In this document: positions 227 to 46,384 of the stretch, piece by piece
How the letters are laid out: the number at the start of each line of letters is the position of its first letter
How positions within the stretch are numbered: position 1 is the first letter of the stretch
Origin: Brockia lithotrophica
Lineage (GTDB): Bacteria > Bacillota > Bacilli > Thermicanales > DSM-22653
Direction: 5' to 3'
Assembly (NCBI RefSeq): GCF_003633725.1
Contig: NZ_RBIJ01000002.1
Location: forward strand, 6,598 to 70,597
DNA: 64,000 nucleotides
Made by a program: the position numbers and the translations under genes
Notes under the pieces: model-generated
The model's database searches: none
Seen by the model: only the letters and a program-made list of their open reading frames with translations
What the model was told of the DNA's origin: nothing

Positions 227-1138
227 GTGAACCGCCCATCGTGGTCTGAAGCGCTTGCCGAATTTCTCTTACACAAGCGTGCGGGGGGAATCCGTGAGGA
301 GACCTTACGTGGATACGAACGGCATGTGAAGCAATTTTTCAAACTATACCCCCAGGCGTGGGACGACATGACCGTCTTGAGGCACTCGGCTTTTGAATGG
401 TTGTCGGAGCCCGTGAAACCTGCGACATACAACCTCCGCCTTGTGTATCTCCGAGCCTTCCTGGAATGGTGCCGCGAACAAGGCTACGTGGAAGACAATC
501 CGCTTCGGAAATTCAAACGAAGAAAGGCGGATTCTCGCATCGTCCAGCTTTCGGAAGAAACACTAAGAGCTCTCCTTCAGCTACCCGACCAGAAAACATT
601 TTCCGGACTTAGGGACTATGCGCTTTTGCTTCTTACTCTTGACACAGGCATTCGTCCGAATGAAGCTTTTCAACTGCGCGCTGACGATTTTGACTTTCGA
701 ACTCTCAGTGTGCGCATTCGCGCTGAAGCATCCAAAACAAAAACTTCTCGTTTTCTACCCATTTCTCCACAGACGGCACAGGCGGTTCGAAAACTTCTCA
801 AAGCACACCATCCGCATTGGAATGGGAAGGCGCCGGTTTTTTGCACATTCGACGGACGCCCGCTTACCCGGCACGCCTGGAATGACCGGCTGGAAATGTA
901 CAGCAAGCGCCTAGGAGTCAAAATCCGACCTTATGACCTCCGGCATGCATTTGCCTTGCTTTTCCTTCGCCACGGCGGGCATGCCTTCGCGCTACAAAGA
1001 ATCATGGGTCACTCTGACATGAGCATGACGAAGCGCTATGTCGCCCTGACCCAAGAAGACCTGAAGGACATACATGCCGTGGCGACCCCACTCAGTGCCG
1101 TTCTGGAACCTCCACGGCCGCGACGGCGGAAGCTGTAA
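227..1138 (+). CDS. tyrosine recombinase / integrase
   Basis: This 303-residue site-specific recombinase very likely catalyses integration and excision of the surrounding element at tRNA-Arg. Residues about 5-90 form a SAM-like core-binding domain, and the rest is the catalytic domain. Visible active-site residues are Arg143 (TGIRPNEA), a beta-hairpin Lys near 172, Arg239-His240 in YDLRHAFA, His262 in MGHSDMSMT and the nucleophile Tyr271. The usual first His of the HxxR box is Tyr236, a common variant. The GTG start at 227 follows AGGAGGGG at about 213-220. The gene lies directly inside the left repeat, the usual place for an element's own integrase. It resembles XerC/D-type enzymes, but its position argues for an element-specific function. 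Confidence 0.93.
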   Translation: MNRPSWSEALAEFLLHKRAGGIREETLRGYERHVKQFFKLYPQAWDDMTVLRHSAFEWLSEPVKPATYNLRLVYLRAFLEWCREQGYVEDNPLRKFKRRKADSRIVQLSEETLRALLQLPDQKTFSGLRDYALLLLTLDTGIRPNEAFQLRADDFDFRTLSVRIRAEASKTKTSRFLPISPQTAQAVRKLLKAHHPHWNGKAPVFCTFDGRPLTRHAWNDRLEMYSKRLGVKIRPYDLRHAFALLFLRHGGHAFALQRIMGHSDMSMTKRYVALTQEDLKDIHAVATPLSAVLEPPRPRRRKL

Positions 1139-1337: not shown

Positions 1338-2969
1338 ATGCAAGGCGAAACTCCGCAGGACAACCGGAATTCAAAGAAAAGCGCTCTCTCGTTTTTAAAA
1401 TCCAACCCCAAACTCCTCATCCTCTCCCTTCTCATCCTCACCGCAGTTTTTGCAGGCATTTTTGCGCTTGTGCACCACATGAAGGCCTCTTCCGAGAGTG
1501 CAGGGGCCACACCGCCTTCCCAGGAAGCGCTCATCGCAGAAGTGAAAGATTACGAAAAGCATGTAGCAGAAAACTGCTGCCTCGCGGTGAAGCTTCCTGT
1601 ACCTGAAGGCTGGCGCGTCCCTGAGCACCTGAAGGAAAAGGGCCCTCAAGCCGTACCCTACAAGGATTCTGCTACACCTATGACGCTTGAGTACTGGCGT
1701 GACCTCATCGGTGAAGAAAACTGGGCCGTCGCGAATAAGGAAATTGAGCCTGAAAATCCTAAGCTCGATGCCCCTCCTCCTCCCCCTCACCCGCTACAAA
1801 TCATCAAGCGAGACATTTTTGATTTCGCAGAACAGGAGTTTAAAGACTACGAAACGAAGTTCTTAACTGCTTTTGAACGTGCAGCGCAGGGTGACGTTAC
1901 GGCAATGCCTATGATTCGTTCTGACCTCAAGCAATACTACGAAAAGCCTTACGCCAACGGCTACCCGAAGTCCATGATCGACGCGTGGAAGGAGCGGATG
2001 TCCCGCTACAAGCTCACGTTCCTCGGCTACTACGCTTACCCGAACGAGGTTCCTGAGTCCACGGCAGAACTCCTAGCGGTGGAAGAAAAGTTTTGGGCTG
2101 CTTACAGCAACAGCGACTCTCCTCTTGAAAGGTACTTCGTAAAGCCTGTAGTTTCTACGGAGGAATTCAATCAAACCTTTAAGGACTACAAGTACAAGTA
2201 CCACTACCCGCTTCCTTCGGACTTGTCCGAGAAGAAGTTCCTGTTTGCCGACGAGGCGGTAAAGCACGACCCACGGAACTTGCTTGATTTCTACCCTGAG
2301 CGGTTCTCTGACGGTTCTCAAAACTACCGCCCCAACTTCATCCTCGTAGACTACACCTTCGGCCCAGACGGAAAGCTTACGTCCTTCACGTTCCGCCCCG
2401 TCGGTACGCGCGCTCTCTACCGCGTGGACATCGAAAACCCGGTCGGAAGCGTAGTAAAGAGCGGCACGTGGGCTGCGTCGTATGTAGTACCTGGTGATAC
2501 GATTACGTTCGAGTACGCCGACAAGGCGCACGAAGAACTCCTCCGCAAGCTCGTCGAGTACCGAATCCCTGTAGACATTCGGCTCATGGAGTTTCCAACG
2601 TACTTCTACAAGTCTGAACGAGGAAATGTCATCGACTACCTCGAAACCGACCCGCACAAGCTCACGTATTACTACGACTACAAGGCTAAGTATCCGGAAA
2701 ACATTGTCGTGACGGTACGTGGCGGAGACTTTGAGTTCGGTGTAGACGTTTTTGTTCACAGCAACGAAGATGTTAAGATGCTCTTTGAAGGTAAAGACCC
2801 TGTCCCTGTGCCTTCGCTTCTTCCTGAGTACTACATCCCGCACGAACTCGATAAGTACCATCCGGAACTCCGTAACCAACTGTTTACATCTGAAATGGTC
2901 AAATTCTACAAGACCTTCGACGACAGGAAGAAGTGGGGCGCAGGAGCAGTACCGACTGGTGGATTTTAG
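1338..2969 (+). CDS. membrane-anchored protein of unknown function
   Basis: I do not recognise this 543-residue protein. A basic N-terminus (residues 1-26) is followed by one hydrophobic segment at about 27-48, ending before an acidic linker. This predicts a single N-terminal anchor with about 490 residues outside the membrane. The body is rich in Tyr, Lys, Asp and Pro, with a proline run (APPPPPHP) near residue 145 and few cysteines. No enzyme motif, Walker box or repeat is obvious. It has its own promoter and ribosome site (GGAGGTG at 1324-1330) and ends in a terminator. The next gene encodes another exported protein. A structural or surface role for the element is possible but is inference only. 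Confidence 0.7.
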   Translation: MQGETPQDNRNSKKSALSFLKSNPKLLILSLLILTAVFAGIFALVHHMKASSESAGATPPSQEALIAEVKDYEKHVAENCCLAVKLPVPEGWRVPEHLKEKGPQAVPYKDSATPMTLEYWRDLIGEENWAVANKEIEPENPKLDAPPPPPHPLQIIKRDIFDFAEQEFKDYETKFLTAFERAAQGDVTAMPMIRSDLKQYYEKPYANGYPKSMIDAWKERMSRYKLTFLGYYAYPNEVPESTAELLAVEEKFWAAYSNSDSPLERYFVKPVVSTEEFNQTFKDYKYKYHYPLPSDLSEKKFLFADEAVKHDPRNLLDFYPERFSDGSQNYRPNFILVDYTFGPDGKLTSFTFRPVGTRALYRVDIENPVGSVVKSGTWAASYVVPGDTITFEYADKAHEELLRKLVEYRIPVDIRLMEFPTYFYKSERGNVIDYLETDPHKLTYYYDYKAKYPENIVVTVRGGDFEFGVDVFVHSNEDVKMLFEGKDPVPVPSLLPEYYIPHELDKYHPELRNQLFTSEMVKFYKTFDDRKKWGAGAVPTGGF

Positions 2970-3090: not shown

Positions 3091-4405
3091 TTGCGCTTTC
3101 GAAGATTTCTTCTCCGCGCGTTTTCCATATGGATGGTGGGAATTCTTGTATTCGGAATGCTTCCAGAAGGTTTAGTTCAAAAAAACTTTTGCGGATACGC
3201 AGATTGTGGATTTAAGTGGAAGTATACCTTCGTACAACACTCCTCCGTATTCTGGCTACACACCACCTTCGGCTTCAAATCCAGTTCTGCTCTATACGGT
3301 GAAGTATGAGAATGTGAACTTAAAATTGGTTCCGCTTTATGACGGACAGAGGTTGTTTGTGGATAAAGACGACCCAGGAAAGTTTAGCGTAAGCTTCGAA
3401 GGCGCCCAAAATCCTCCCGGTTACGTTCAACTTTTTGCCCAAAAAGTGGCGAATTGGATTAAGGGAACGGCGGGGCAAACTATTGTTAAATACGGAAGTA
3501 AACAAATTTCTGGCCTCCCATATGATATTTGGAATGTTTCTACAGACCAGCCCAATGCCGGCCTCATCGGCCGGGAATTTGTAACGCAAGGAGAATACTA
3601 TTTCACTACAACACTCCCCGACGGGAAGCTAGCAAACGTAAGAGCAAGGAAAATGACGATGAGGTTTACAACAGGTGGGTTTGCGCTAGGCGATAGCGTC
3701 GGGCCGTCAAAAGATGGTGTCGGTCAAGTCTATTCCCGAAGCACCATCTACGCCACCCTCGCTGTAGAGTACGATGGCTTGTATGTTTATCTTGACCAAA
3801 AAACAAAAACTACGAGCTACTTTCCAGTAATCCGCAATAAGCAGGTTTCTTTTAACGTTGCCGGAAAATCTTTTACAGACGTTTTGGGCGACAGCGACCC
3901 TGTGCTTCCGGGGCAGGCGGTATCCGCAAACGTGCTCGCCACGTATGATACGAACGACGGCCATCCGTATATCACAAAGTCTCCTATTTCTGTTCTAGTA
4001 GCTACGTATACAATTCCGATTGATGTGGCTTTTTCTGAAGATTTCAATCCTTCGCTCGCTTCTTTCTCTGCCAACCTCGGTTTTGTCACACCCGACGCTC
4101 CCGGTTCAGTGCAGGTCATTTTGCCGACAGATATTAAGACTTCTGGAGCTAATAAATGCAGAGCAGTACGGAAAGGGTATACGGCAATAATTTCCCTGAC
4201 AAACGCGCTTGGAATGGGGAAGGATTTGAATGAAGCGGTTACATATAACGATCCGCGAGCTCGCGGTCTTTTAAATGTTATTAGAGAACAAGTACGTGAT
4301 ACTGTTAAAAATAAGCTAGTGTCGCTTATTGAAAGTGATATTAGCGGTATGGGGGAAAGATGTGAAAGAAAGGTGCTTTCACTGGTCCGAAAGTGTTTCT
4401 GTTGA
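3091..4405 (+). CDS. exported protein of unknown function, frameshifted at an A7 tract
   Basis: The start is TTG at 3091, preceded by AAAGGAGGG at 3072-3080. It opens a typical signal peptide: basic RFRRFLLR, a hydrophobic core, then GMLPEGLVQK. This frame soon departs from the long frame that runs to 4405. The two join perfectly if the run of seven A at 3179-3185 is read as six, giving ...VQKTFADTQIVDLSG... with a plausible cleavage site after TFA. The mature part of about 400 residues is rich in Thr, Ser, Val and Tyr, probably mostly beta-strand, and matches no family I recognise. Read literally, the long frame could only start at GTG 3206, without export signal or ribosome site. The cause may be a sequencing error, phase variation or a real lesion. 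Confidence 0.65.
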
Positions 4406-4457
4406 AAGTGCGCTTTGAAGTTGCGTCAAATGTCCTATCGCTAAGCGGTCACCACGC

Positions 4458-4803
4458 GGAGGGGATGAAAAAACTTGGGAGGAGATTTCGGGAGGGGATG
4501 AAAAGAATAGCAGAAACATCTCCTCCATCGCAATCCCTGTGTTTATGCAAGTTAATGTCATTTCGGAGGAGACGGAGGAGATAAATACCGGGCTCCAACT
4601 TTTATTTCATGTGATTCGCCACGCGAGAGGGATATATACCGACTCTCTATTTTTTTCTTTTCTAAGAAAGGACAATCATCTCCTCCATCTCCTCCAAATC
4701 TCTCTCCCCTCCGCGTGGGTACTGCGATTTTCGTGGAGGAGATTAAAAAGACATCCCCTCCAATACCATACTCATCCCCTCCGCATATCCTCTAATCTCC
4801 TCC
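4458..4803. repeat. iteron-like repeats, candidate replication origin
   Basis: Nine-base copies of GGAGGRGAT occur on the plus strand at 4458, 4478, 4491, 4565 (last base C), 4574 and 4735. They occur on the minus strand at 4518-4526, 4678-4686, 4687-4695, 4703-4712 (variant), 4753-4761, 4774-4782 and 4795-4803. The left cluster is mostly plus and the right cluster mostly minus, around an A+T-rich centre near 4600-4670. A longer arm, CCACGCGGAGGGG at 4452-4464, faces CCCCTCCGCGTGG at about 4707-4719. The block lies in the 549-bp gene-free space directly before the PrimPol gene, where an origin would be expected. The repeats resemble Shine-Dalgarno sequence but precede no gene in this orientation. 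Confidence 0.65.
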
Positions 4804-4883: not shown

Positions 4884-4911
4884 TTGACTTAAGAGAAAGA
4901 TATGGTATAAT
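4884..4911 (+). promoter_or_regulatory. promoter of the PrimPol gene
   Basis: TTGACT (4884-4889) and TATAAT (4906-4911) are spaced by 16 bases, close to the housekeeping consensus. The start codon follows at 4955 with the ribosome site AGGGGGG. Confidence 0.8.
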
Positions 4912-4954: not shown

Positions 4955-7429
4955 ATGAAAAATGTATTCCCTAGTGAGTTGCGCAGGATGAGGCGATGGA
5001 TTTTGTGGCGTCTGGCAGACAGGGACGGGAAGAAGACGAAAGTCCCCATTGGGCCAGACGGGAAGGCGATTTCCGTGCTCGAGGAAGGAAACTGGAAGAC
5101 TTTGGACGAGCTCGAAACACTCGTCGGCATTCCCCACGCAGGTGTCGGTTTTGTCTTCACGGCGGAAGACGGGCTCGTGGGAATAGACCTCGACGACGCG
5201 TTCACAGAGCCGTTTGTTACGGAATCCGCCAAGCCCTGGGCGCGGGAAATTTTGGAGCGTTTTCGTGGGGCGTACGTGACTTGGAGCCCGTCTGGAAAGG
5301 GCGCCCACATCATCGTCCGCGGCGTGTGGGGATTTGGGCACAAAACGGGGCTCGACGACGGTGGGAAAATTGAGGTTTACGATGACAAACGCTTCTTTAC
5401 CATGACGGGCCATCTCATCGTAGAATTCGGCGCGCCCAAGCTTGTCGACGCGACGGAGGCGTTGGATTGGCTGGGAAGCAGGTATTTCGGCAATCGGCAC
5501 CTCGACAAGCAGGAATCGTTTGCATCGCTTCCCCATAAAGATGCCGACCTTCCTCCCGGCCTACCGGACAAAGTGCATGCGTTGCGCCGTGCCCTAGAGG
5601 AGGGCAAGCCGAACAACGAGGTTTTACCGCTTCTCCGCGCTGTACTTCCGCTTGCCGGTGAACTTGGAGAACGGGCGAAGCGGCTCATCCAAGGCGACAC
5701 CAAAGCCTTTGCGGAGTTTCACGACGACCAGTCTGCCATCGAACAGTCCCTTGCGAACGCTTTCGCCGTGGCAACCGGCGGTGACGCCAAGATGATAGCC
5801 GAACTCCTTACGCGTTTTTCTCCACGGTGGGAGAAGCGCGAAAAACTCGAGCGCGAGGACTACCTGGAGCGTACTGCCGAGGAAGCCGTGAAGTGGTATC
5901 ATTCCTCCCATCGCGTGGAGATTGACGTAGACCGCAACGTACTCGAACCATCGGTGCGTAAGTTGGCAATCGATGCCCTCCGCTGGCGCTACGAGGGGAA
6001 ACTCTTCCGCTACGGTGATGTCCCTGTGGCCGTAGACGGCAATCGTCTTTTCACACTCGATGCGACGAGACTTTCTATCCTCCTAGCCGATGCGGCGATT
6101 TTTCGGAAAGGTTCTAAGAAAAAAACTTCCATCGACCCTCCGGAGAGATTGGTGAAGGCGCTGGTTGCGGAGCTCACGATGCGGGAAGAGTTGCCCGAGC
6201 TTCGCGGAATCGTGAGGTCGCCGGTCATCTTCCCCGACGGTCGTGTGGTGAGGAGCAACGGATACGACCCCGTTTCGGGGCTGCTTTTCGTAGACTTGCC
6301 GAGCATCGACATCCCAAATCCTCCGACGAAAGAGGACGCCTCGAAAGCGTACATGAAGATTCTCGACATACTTGGCTACTCGTTCGCTTCCCCTGCCGAT
6401 GAATCCGCCGCCGTCGCCTATCTCTTGACCGCTGTCCTTCGTCCCGCTTTTCCCCTCGCCCCGCTGTTTCTCATCACCGCCCCAGAGGCGGGAAGTGGGA
6501 AGACGACCCTAGCTCAAGTCGGAGGGATTGTCGCCCATGGACGAATCCCCGACATACTCCCGGAGCCTGAGAACGAAGAAGAATTCCGCAAGCGTGTTGA
6601 AGCAGCTCTCCTCGAAGGTCGTGCGCTGATTATCTTGGACAACCTCCACCGCGACATTCGCTCTGCAACCCTCGAAGCGGCGATTACTTCCGAGACGATA
6701 AGCCTCCGTCCTCTTGGACGTTCGGAGACGCGAACTGTGCCGAATTCTGCAACTTTTGTCGCTACGGGAAACAACATTGCGCCGTTTGGAGACATGAGGC
6801 GTAGGACGGTCGTAATTCGTCTTGAGGGGCGACAAGGCAGCTTGCTGGAAGAAAAACTCGAGGGGAGAGAGAACTCATTCCTGCACGACATCCGCGCGCA
6901 CCGTGGGGAACTTTTGTCCGCCTTGCTCACCATCGTTCTCGCATACCATCACGCCGGCAGGCCGAACGTACGAGCCTTAAGCTTCCCGTCGTTTGAGATG
7001 TGGGCGCGCATGGTTCGGGACCCGCTGGTATGGCTCGGAGCCGCCGACCCTGTGGAGACGGTTCAAAGGACGTACGACGAGGACGAGAACGCAGCAGTTC
7101 TGGAAGCCTTCTTCGAGATTTTGTACGAGGAGTTTGGAACTGAGCCGTTTTCCGCGCGAGACGTTGCGGCACGTCTCAATTCCATACGCAATGATGACAG
7201 CGACGACTTGATTCGCGACCTAGCTTCCCAACTGAAGATTACCAATCGCTTCGGAGAGGTGGAAACGGCAGCCCTCGGATATAAGCTCCGCGCGTGGAGA
7301 GACCGTGTATTCGGCGGTTTCCGCCTCGAACGCGTCGGGACTGGGCACGCTAAGATGACAAAGTGGCGTCTCGTTCCCGTTTCTGCGCTGGCGAACGAGG
7401 AAAAGAAATTTCAATCCACAACGCTTTAG
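4955..7429 (+). CDS. PrimPol-ATPase fusion (element replication protein)
   Basis: This 824-residue protein joins a primase-polymerase to an ATPase. Residues about 1-175 match the archaeo-eukaryotic-type PrimPol seen in phage NrS-1 and related elements: Asp78 and Asp80 in VGIDLDDAF, His118 in SGKGAHII and Glu140 in IEVYDD-RFFTMTG are the expected three motifs. A linker of about 300 residues leads to an ATPase with Walker A EAGSGKTT (Lys516), Walker B ALIILDN (Asp562) and an ATGNN sensor followed by arginines (DMRRR). The last 130 residues look like the winged-helix tail common in prophage primases. It should prime, copy and unwind element DNA from the adjacent iterons. It has its own promoter and a terminator 10 bases after the stop. 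Confidence 0.88.
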   Translation: MKNVFPSELRRMRRWILWRLADRDGKKTKVPIGPDGKAISVLEEGNWKTLDELETLVGIPHAGVGFVFTAEDGLVGIDLDDAFTEPFVTESAKPWAREILERFRGAYVTWSPSGKGAHIIVRGVWGFGHKTGLDDGGKIEVYDDKRFFTMTGHLIVEFGAPKLVDATEALDWLGSRYFGNRHLDKQESFASLPHKDADLPPGLPDKVHALRRALEEGKPNNEVLPLLRAVLPLAGELGERAKRLIQGDTKAFAEFHDDQSAIEQSLANAFAVATGGDAKMIAELLTRFSPRWEKREKLEREDYLERTAEEAVKWYHSSHRVEIDVDRNVLEPSVRKLAIDALRWRYEGKLFRYGDVPVAVDGNRLFTLDATRLSILLADAAIFRKGSKKKTSIDPPERLVKALVAELTMREELPELRGIVRSPVIFPDGRVVRSNGYDPVSGLLFVDLPSIDIPNPPTKEDASKAYMKILDILGYSFASPADESAAVAYLLTAVLRPAFPLAPLFLITAPEAGSGKTTLAQVGGIVAHGRIPDILPEPENEEEFRKRVEAALLEGRALIILDNLHRDIRSATLEAAITSETISLRPLGRSETRTVPNSATFVATGNNIAPFGDMRRRTVVIRLEGRQGSLLEEKLEGRENSFLHDIRAHRGELLSALLTIVLAYHHAGRPNVRALSFPSFEMWARMVRDPLVWLGAADPVETVQRTYDEDENAAVLEAFFEILYEEFGTEPFSARDVAARLNSIRNDDSDDLIRDLASQLKITNRFGEVETAALGYKLRAWRDRVFGGFRLERVGTGHAKMTKWRLVPVSALANEEKKFQSTTL

Positions 7430-7828: not shown

Positions 7829-7959
7829 GACTTGGTGCCGGTGACAGGGGTCGAACCTGCACGGGGGGTCACCCCACGCGATTTTGAGTCGCGCGCGTCT
7901 GCCAATTCCGCCACACCGGCAAACGTGGCGCGCCCGGAGGGACTCGAACCCCCAACCTT
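7829..7959. repeat. right 131-bp direct repeat (attR side)
   Basis: Identical to 2-132. Here the repeat runs into the 5' half of tRNA-Arg, so the tRNA gene is intact at this junction, as expected when the element supplies a replacement 3' end. Confidence 0.9.
7833..7920 (-). tRNA. tRNA-Leu(CAA), right copy
   Basis: Same 88-nt class II tRNA as at 6-93, with anticodon loop CTCAAAA and encoded CCA. It lies five bases downstream of the intact tRNA-Arg and is the last member of the array. By geometry this is probably the copy brought by the element, while the left copy is the original. Confidence 0.92.
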
Positions 7960-8320: not shown

Positions 8321-8396
8321 TGGCGGTGCTGACGGGACTTGAACCCGCGATCTCCGGTGTGACAGACCGGTGTGTTAACCCCTACACCACAGCACC
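8321..8396 (-). tRNA. tRNA-Asp(GTC)
   Basis: A 76-nt cloverleaf with acceptor GGTGCTG/CAGCACC, anticodon loop CTGTCAC (GTC), discriminator G and encoded CCA. Confidence 0.92.
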
Positions 8397-8412: not shown

Positions 8413-8489
<77 letters not shown>

Positions 8490-45715: not shown

Positions 45716-46384
45716 TCACTCGTCTGCGACGTCGTACTCCGCCTTTCCCGCTACGCCTGCGCTGAGGCCACGGCGTTCGGGAGAGGGAGAAAGCGCGTCC
45801 CCGAGCGCCATTCCGAAGGCGCGAAAGAGCGCTTCCCAGAGGTGATGGCCGTGTCTCGGGCGTACGCGGAGGAGATCGAGGTGGAGCGTGGCGCCGGCCC
45901 CTTGGACGAACCCCTCGAAAAAGGCCACGAGGTCTTCGGACGATACCCCCTCTGTCTCTTCGGGAAAGCGTTCGTCCACGTCCAGGTGGAGGTACGCCCG
46001 GCCTTCAAAGGCGAGAACGGCGCGGGCGAGCGCCTCGTCGAGTGCGGCGTAGGCGTAGGCGAAGCCGCGAACGCCGCGTTCCGCGAGCCGGTCGTGAAGC
46101 CGCGCCGCCGCGCGGCCGAAGGCCGTACCGACGTCTTCCGTGACGAGGTGGCGTAGGGGGAAGTGCGTGAGTTCTACGTCCACCTCGATTCCGAGGCCGC
46201 TCCGCCACGCAACCTGCTCGAGCATGTGGCTAAAAAACGGGTGCGGCGTCCGAAGCGCAAACTTCACGTCCGGGGTCGCCCCGCGAACGGCGAGGCCCAC
46301 GACGACGCGCGATTCCCGCGTCGTACGCACGACGCGCACGCGAGGAAGGGCTTCGGAACGCGTTTCGGCATCGTTCACCCGCAT
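45716..46384 (-). CDS. hisB: HisB-like imidazoleglycerol-phosphate dehydratase, altered metal site
   Basis: A 222-residue protein of the HisB dehydratase family, which normally uses a di-Mn cluster held by His and Glu. Retained segments are PHPFFSHMLEQVAW, VTEDVGTAFGRA, ALDEALA and GHHLWEALFRAFGMAL. Two positions differ: the HH pair before xxED is RH (FPLRHLVTED), and the family's EHFF His is replaced (LVAFFEGF). Both are metal ligands in structurally studied IGP dehydratases. It may be a divergent active enzyme, an inactive copy or a paralogue. The start overlaps the hisD stop (TGATG). It is the last gene of the operon; hisH does not follow. Confidence 0.7.
   Translation of the reverse strand: MRVNDAETRSEALPRVRVVRTTRESRVVVGLAVRGATPDVKFALRTPHPFFSHMLEQVAWRSGLGIEVDVELTHFPLRHLVTEDVGTAFGRAAARLHDRLAERGVRGFAYAYAALDEALARAVLAFEGRAYLHLDVDERFPEETEGVSSEDLVAFFEGFVQGAGATLHLDLLRVRPRHGHHLWEALFRAFGMALGDALSPSPERRGLSAGVAGKAEYDVADE

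Follow-up and report, generated by a model that had tools for sequence, protein, structure and literature searches.

What does a dense block of short inverted repeats do directly in front of the only replication gene of a very small integrated element? The block lies at positions 4458-4803 of a 64,000-nucleotide stretch of the Brockia lithotrophica genome (contig NZ_RBIJ01000002.1; hereafter the window), within an element of ~7.7 kb that occupies a tRNA cluster, is delimited by two copies of a 131-bp direct repeat (2-132 and 7829-7959) and encodes a PrimPol-helicase immediately downstream of the repeats. We conclude that this array is very probably the replication origin of the element, which would give a tiny tRNA-integrated element a concrete candidate origin.

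A preliminary description of the sequence had counted about 13 nine-base repeats in 346 bases, and the count holds: GGAGGRGAT is found there 13 times, with 11 exact copies (plus strand: 4458, 4478, 4491, 4574, and 4735; minus strand: 4518, 4678, 4687, 4753, 4774, and 4795) and two copies with one mismatch (4565, plus; 4704, minus). This density is far above chance. Dinucleotide shuffles of a 391-bp block gave an expectation of 0.04 exact sites and a maximum of 3 in 2000 trials, and the expectation under mononucleotide shuffling was 0.007. Because the word itself is not rare (155 places genome-wide vs 111 for a reversed control word), the special feature is its clustering, which within the 64 kb is confined to the array; the sole exact copy beyond it lies at 45868. 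A second word, CCACGCG, marks the left edge of the array and recurs within the core and on the right side. The longer facing arms reported earlier are also present, as CCACGCGGAGGGG at 4452-4464 and 4705-4718, and the core holds a third copy, CCACGCGAGAGGG, at 4619-4631. The array, the adjoining promoter and the initiator gene comprise the following features:

4452-4466, plus strand: outer left long arm CCACGCGGAGGGGAT, identified from the sequence and holding iteron 1 (4458-4466)
4478-4486, plus strand: iteron 2, exact match
4491-4499, plus strand: iteron 3, exact match
4518-4526, minus strand: reversed iteron of the left half, 47 bp before the inner pair; exact, and at the same place in the related genome G001
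4565-4582, plus strand: left inner tandem iteron pair with a 9-bp period, kept in G001; its position corresponds to a RepA footprint in pWTY27
4583-4677, no strand: A+T-rich core, the presumed melting region by composition and stability, containing CCACGCGAGAGGG
4678-4695, minus strand: right inner tandem iteron pair with a 9-bp period, by motif match
4704-4718, minus strand: right long arm CCACGCGGAGGGGAG with the one-mismatch iteron at 4704-4712, by motif match
4735-4743, plus strand: reversed iteron of the right half, 48 bp after the inner pair; exact
4753-4803, minus strand: three outer right iterons (4753, 4774, and 4795) with a 21-bp period; both spacings (21, 21) are identical in G001
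4884-4911, plus strand: promoter of the initiator gene (TTGACT-16-TATAAT), outside the array and conserved in G001
4955-7429, plus strand: PrimPol (AEP)-helicase initiator of 824 aa with a winged-helix-like C-terminal domain (approximately aa 700-811), assigned from PHROG primase/helicase families, DUF5906, PDB relatives, and an AlphaFold model

The repeats had been described as mostly plus-oriented on the left and minus-oriented on the right, which is correct but understates their order. Twelve sites matching GGAGGAGAT with at most one mismatch are oriented +++-++ core --+---, forming a perfect mirror palindrome with exactly one reversed site per half, and follow one another at start-to-start spacings of 20, 13, 27, 47, 9 | 104 | 9, 48, 18, 21, 21. 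In each half, the innermost two sites form a 9-bp tandem pair pointing toward the core, the single reversed site stands 47 bp (left) or 48 bp (right) outside this pair, and three more sites lie beyond it. The core is 61% A+T, compared with 37% for the window, and its softest 50 bp rank within the least stable 1% of the element. A DnaA-assisted iteron origin of the RepA/TrfA type was rejected, as no DnaA-box-like site occurs in 4458-4803 at ≤ 1 mismatch and the iterons are bipolar rather than tandem in one direction. An Rfam search returned chance-level matches only.

A related element occupies the same tRNA cluster in G001, a genome of the same genus; its integrase is 87% and its PrimPol 66% identical to those of the window. 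Its array also lies 5' of the initiator gene, the orientation string is identical, and 10 of the 11 spacings agree within 1 bp. Identity between the two elements is 83% in the sites, 56% in the DNA between them, and 49% just outside the array. These comparisons bear on whether the array could be an operator, at which a repressor or the PrimPol itself would bind the repeats solely to control the promoter of the initiator gene. Array and promoter are ~80 bp apart in the window and ~360 bp apart in G001 while the inner spacing is conserved, which disfavors a simple operator, even though a good promoter (4884-4911) does lie downstream of the array and initiators often autoregulate. No repressor gene is found among the four large open reading frames (ORFs), and in more distant relatives the geometry recurs on the 3' side of the gene rather than near its promoter. 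We therefore regard a purely regulatory array as very unlikely.

The same pair of elements addresses a second alternative, an origin like that of pRN1, in which the initiator would recognize a long stem-loop and not the repeats. Such a structure was proposed for pRN1 (PMC4234260) and by the authors of the pWTY27 study (PMC3583192), and the array strand folds far better than shuffled sequences (z ∼-7; -6 in G001), but inverted iterons fold inevitably. Of the predicted base pairs, G001 keeps 35 of 43 inside the sites vs 35 of 67 outside them, indicating that the words are conserved rather than the fold. A conserved stem-loop of the pRN1 type was thus rejected, and a structure-recognized origin appears very unlikely.

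That the array is an origin, as first suggested in the preliminary description, is supported by its density, by the array of the homologous element, and by the layout of pWTY27. Neither of two conditions that the description had named as refuting it, a chance-level density and absence from homologous elements, holds. In this plasmid, a 300-bp non-coding block is essential, its 149-bp inner part (382-530 of the record) is insufficient, RepA leaves footprints at 405-447 and 462-509, and replication is bidirectional (PMC3583192). In our locus coordinates, the footprints span the two inner pairs, 8345-8361 and 8428-8444, apart from the final base; the outer sites are missing from the 149-bp fragment that does not suffice. 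pWTY27 shares with the window the 9-bp inner pairs and the order ++-++ core --+--, with two outer sites where the window has three, and its RepA is homologous to the window helicase (28% identity over the C-terminal half). It differs in its iteron (GTGGGAAC), in its arm (38 bp vs 47/48 bp), in the spacing across the core (74 bp vs 104 bp), in having primase and helicase as separate genes, and in the position of the array, 3' of repA.

By analogy with pWTY27, for which binding, the need for the array, and bidirectionality are known, the element's own PrimPol-helicase would bind GGAGGRGAT through its C-terminal winged-helix domain and load as hexamers, each half of the palindrome probably positioning one helicase ring. 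With the inner 9-bp pairs pointing at each other from either side of the A+T-rich core, two rings loaded head to head would open the ∼95 bp between them. Both strands would then be primed by the primase domain, and the element, once excised as a circle, would replicate bidirectionally. Taken as a whole (an origin at 4452-4803, PrimPol-helicase binding, two-ring loading, and bidirectional replication), we hold this reading with high confidence.

Related initiators are consistent with such a scheme. In the phage-inducible chromosomal islands (PICIs) and Staphylococcus aureus pathogenicity islands (SaPIs), whose origins combine Pri-Rep with ori (PMC6092414, PMC7581432), the C-terminal domain of the initiator reads the iterons and two hexamers are thought to be loaded; both SaPI Rep and Cch2 use this domain to bind iterons, and for SaPI Rep binding is apparently by two hexamers (PMC7581432). 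The adjacent AEP and D5/SF3-type primase-helicase that origins of this type require is present in the window, and its primase part matches PDB primase entries 7rr3, 6k9a, 6a9w, and 7ola. PICI/SaPI origins, however, lie immediately 3' of rep, whereas the array at 4452-4803 is 5' of its gene (4955-7429), and a motif scan revealed no second array 3' of the PrimPol gene. The iteron is also a different one, GGAGGRGAT, and a family search of the four large ORFs (integrase, two proteins without a family match, and PrimPol-helicase) yielded no recognizable PICI regulatory (stl/alpA), interference, or packaging genes. Judged by these analogies, the array appears to work like those of the PICI kind, yet the element has neither recognizable PICI genes nor the 3' position.

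Other systems resemble the window in part. The Cch2 origin of SCCmec (PMC7581432) also uses a D5-type helicase that binds short iterons with its C-terminal domain, but has only three AAGTG direct repeats, located downstream and without a mirror palindrome. ORF904 of pRN1 (PMC4234260) likewise joins a PrimPol, an SF3 helicase, and a C-terminal winged helix, but its origin is a stem-loop of ∼100 nt, without iterons and 3' of the gene. The alpha protein of phage P4 (PMC4234260, PMC6092414) is a primase-helicase with a repeat-binding C-terminal winged helix, but has a TOPRIM-type primase and two separate cis sites (ori and crr).

We analyzed how widely this plan occurs by scanning for two tandem copies of an 8-mer (8-13 bp) with an inverted tandem pair of the same word facing them at a distance of 70-140 bp. 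Facing pairs within 1 kb of the gene were present in 12 of 28 primase/helicase loci, a small set drawn from search hits, vs 2 of 130 comparison loci (1.12 Mb) that had themselves been picked for GGAGGAGA-type words; shuffling all loci (1.65 Mb) produced no match. Among the twelve is the experimentally established origin of pWTY27. Looser matches adjoin four loci (L165, L167, L182, and L186), and one strict case comes near to the plan of the window, with spacings of 9|104|9 and 56-bp arms on both sides (L173). Three matches were discarded as false positives: L016, probably a structured region resembling transfer-messenger RNA (tmRNA), and L100 (a coding repeat) and L137, neither of which has an adjoining primase/helicase.

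The iteron words differ among these loci (GTAACAGG, TGGGTATA, AGGTACAC, AGGTAGGGA, GGGGGGTT, GTGGGAAC, AGGGGTTT, and GTGGGTTTA). Since the geometry stays fixed while the word changes, it points to a structural requirement, probably that of two facing helicase rings. The differing words also bear on the likeness of GGAGGRGAT to a Shine-Dalgarno sequence remarked on earlier, which looks coincidental: half of the sites are found on the opposite strand, and the words of related origins (GTAACAGG, GTGGGAAC, TGGGTATA, and others) are unrelated to it, so a Shine-Dalgarno or other ribosome-related role was rejected. The survey further argues against a partition (centromere) or recombination-accessory site, which we consider extremely unlikely. 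Arrays of this size also serve partition and the element does encode an integrase, but the geometry tracks primase/helicase genes across replicons, no partition gene was recognized among the large ORFs, and 4.3 kb separate the array from the att repeat next to the integrase.

The origin layout said to be unique to phage-inducible islands thus occurs in plasmids, prophages, and this element as well. On balance, we lean toward a general signature of primase/D5-SF3-helicase replicons (plasmids, prophages, phages, and integrative elements): tandem pairs of 9-10-bp iterons on opposite sides of a ∼60-130-bp core and pointing at each other, often flanked by mirrored outer sites that include one reversed site, and a word that drifts with the C-terminal wing of the initiator. 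If so, such origins could be found by their fixed geometry without knowing the repeat sequence, and their words could be predicted from the wing. As a separate observation, TGTCCCA iterons with the same geometry lie directly 3' of a phage primase-helicase of another PHROG family, phrog_2249 (L134, 11238-11362).

The link between word and wing comes from a phage contig (L130) found solely through its iteron word. Motif scans of IMG/VR returned mostly coding repeats, and this contig alone had both an array and a helicase; collection scans using the PrimPol alone gave no close match. Its D5-type helicase is 27% identical to that of the window, and a GGAGGAGAT array of the same geometry begins ∼40 bp after the end of the helicase gene. 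Its last residues, GLKIERVGTAHTKVTTW, match GFRLERVGTGHAKMTKW of the window, the two proteins sharing ERVGTxHxKxTxW, which the AlphaFold model places as the two-stranded wing of a helix-turn-helix-like domain; initiators with other iteron words have other C-terminal tails. This comparison, a single coincidence between the window and L130, suggests that the wing may help to read the iteron, and an iteron and wing common to two distant replicons offer an entry to a recognition rule.

Several findings weigh against the origin and loading scheme. Sixteen of the 28 primase/helicase loci have no strict geometry match, and although the array is 5' of the gene in both the window and G001, it is 3' in all ten strict cases outside the genus. 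The core is A+T-rich, as the preliminary description stated, but is not uniquely unstable within the element, since four other spots (7539, 4266, 3019, and 4864) are at least as soft. Confidence in the AlphaFold model of the C-terminal domain is modest (mean pLDDT 70), and a Foldseek search of it against PDB gave no significant match; against viral models, Foldseek matched the tails of phage replication proteins with probability 1.0 but E-values of only 0.002-0.02. The model of the helicase part was discarded for its poor quality.

The remainder of the element consists of an integrase, two cargo genes, and the direct repeat, which spans tRNA-Leu and the 3' part of tRNA-Arg:

2-132, no strand: left direct repeat, attL-like, with tRNA-Leu(CAA) and the 3' part of tRNA-Arg(ACG); identical to 7829-7959
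227-1138, plus strand: tyrosine recombinase/integrase, 303 aa (PF00589, E=3e-29); 87% identical in the G001 element
1338-2969, plus strand: membrane-anchored cargo protein, 543 aa, without a family match; 44% identical counterpart in the G001 element
3091-4405, plus strand: secreted protein without a family match, its frame broken between 3091 and 3206; 49% identical to a G001 protein, the identity starting at 3194 in the second frame
7829-7959, no strand: right direct repeat, attR-like, with tRNA-Leu and the 3' part of an intact tRNA-Arg; supported by identity and by the empty site in G002

In G002, a relative of the same family without such a PrimPol gene, the tRNA-Arg/tRNA-Leu site is uninterrupted. 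The left end of the window (position 1) directly follows an assembly gap (G000:C2:6404-6597), and because the preceding contig likewise ends in this tRNA-Leu sequence, the left att repeat was probably duplicated by scaffolding rather than existing in three real copies. Despite the 87% identity of the integrases, the recombination point within the tRNA pair differs, the repeat ending in tRNA-Leu in G001 (L015, 1258) and in tRNA-Arg in the window (132). The inverted repeats beside the left att repeat, perhaps arm sites of the integrase, differ as well: ATCGAGTGGGG..CCCCACTCGAT at 152-192 in the window, and GTCGAGTTAG..AACTCGAT at 1311-1375 in L015.

Across the sister elements, the cargo decays while integrase, PrimPol, and origin remain intact. 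The secreted-protein gene is broken differently in each, with the signal peptide out of frame in the window and the C-terminal part missing in G001 (L015, 4365-5159), and between cargo and origin the G001 element carries an additional 141-aa gene that has no Pfam match (L015, 5261-5686). The 543-aa membrane protein has diverged paralogues on the host chromosome (G000:C1:687194-690427) and a second close copy in G001 (L016, 6228-7925), beside a tmRNA-like sequence that is possibly another integration site.
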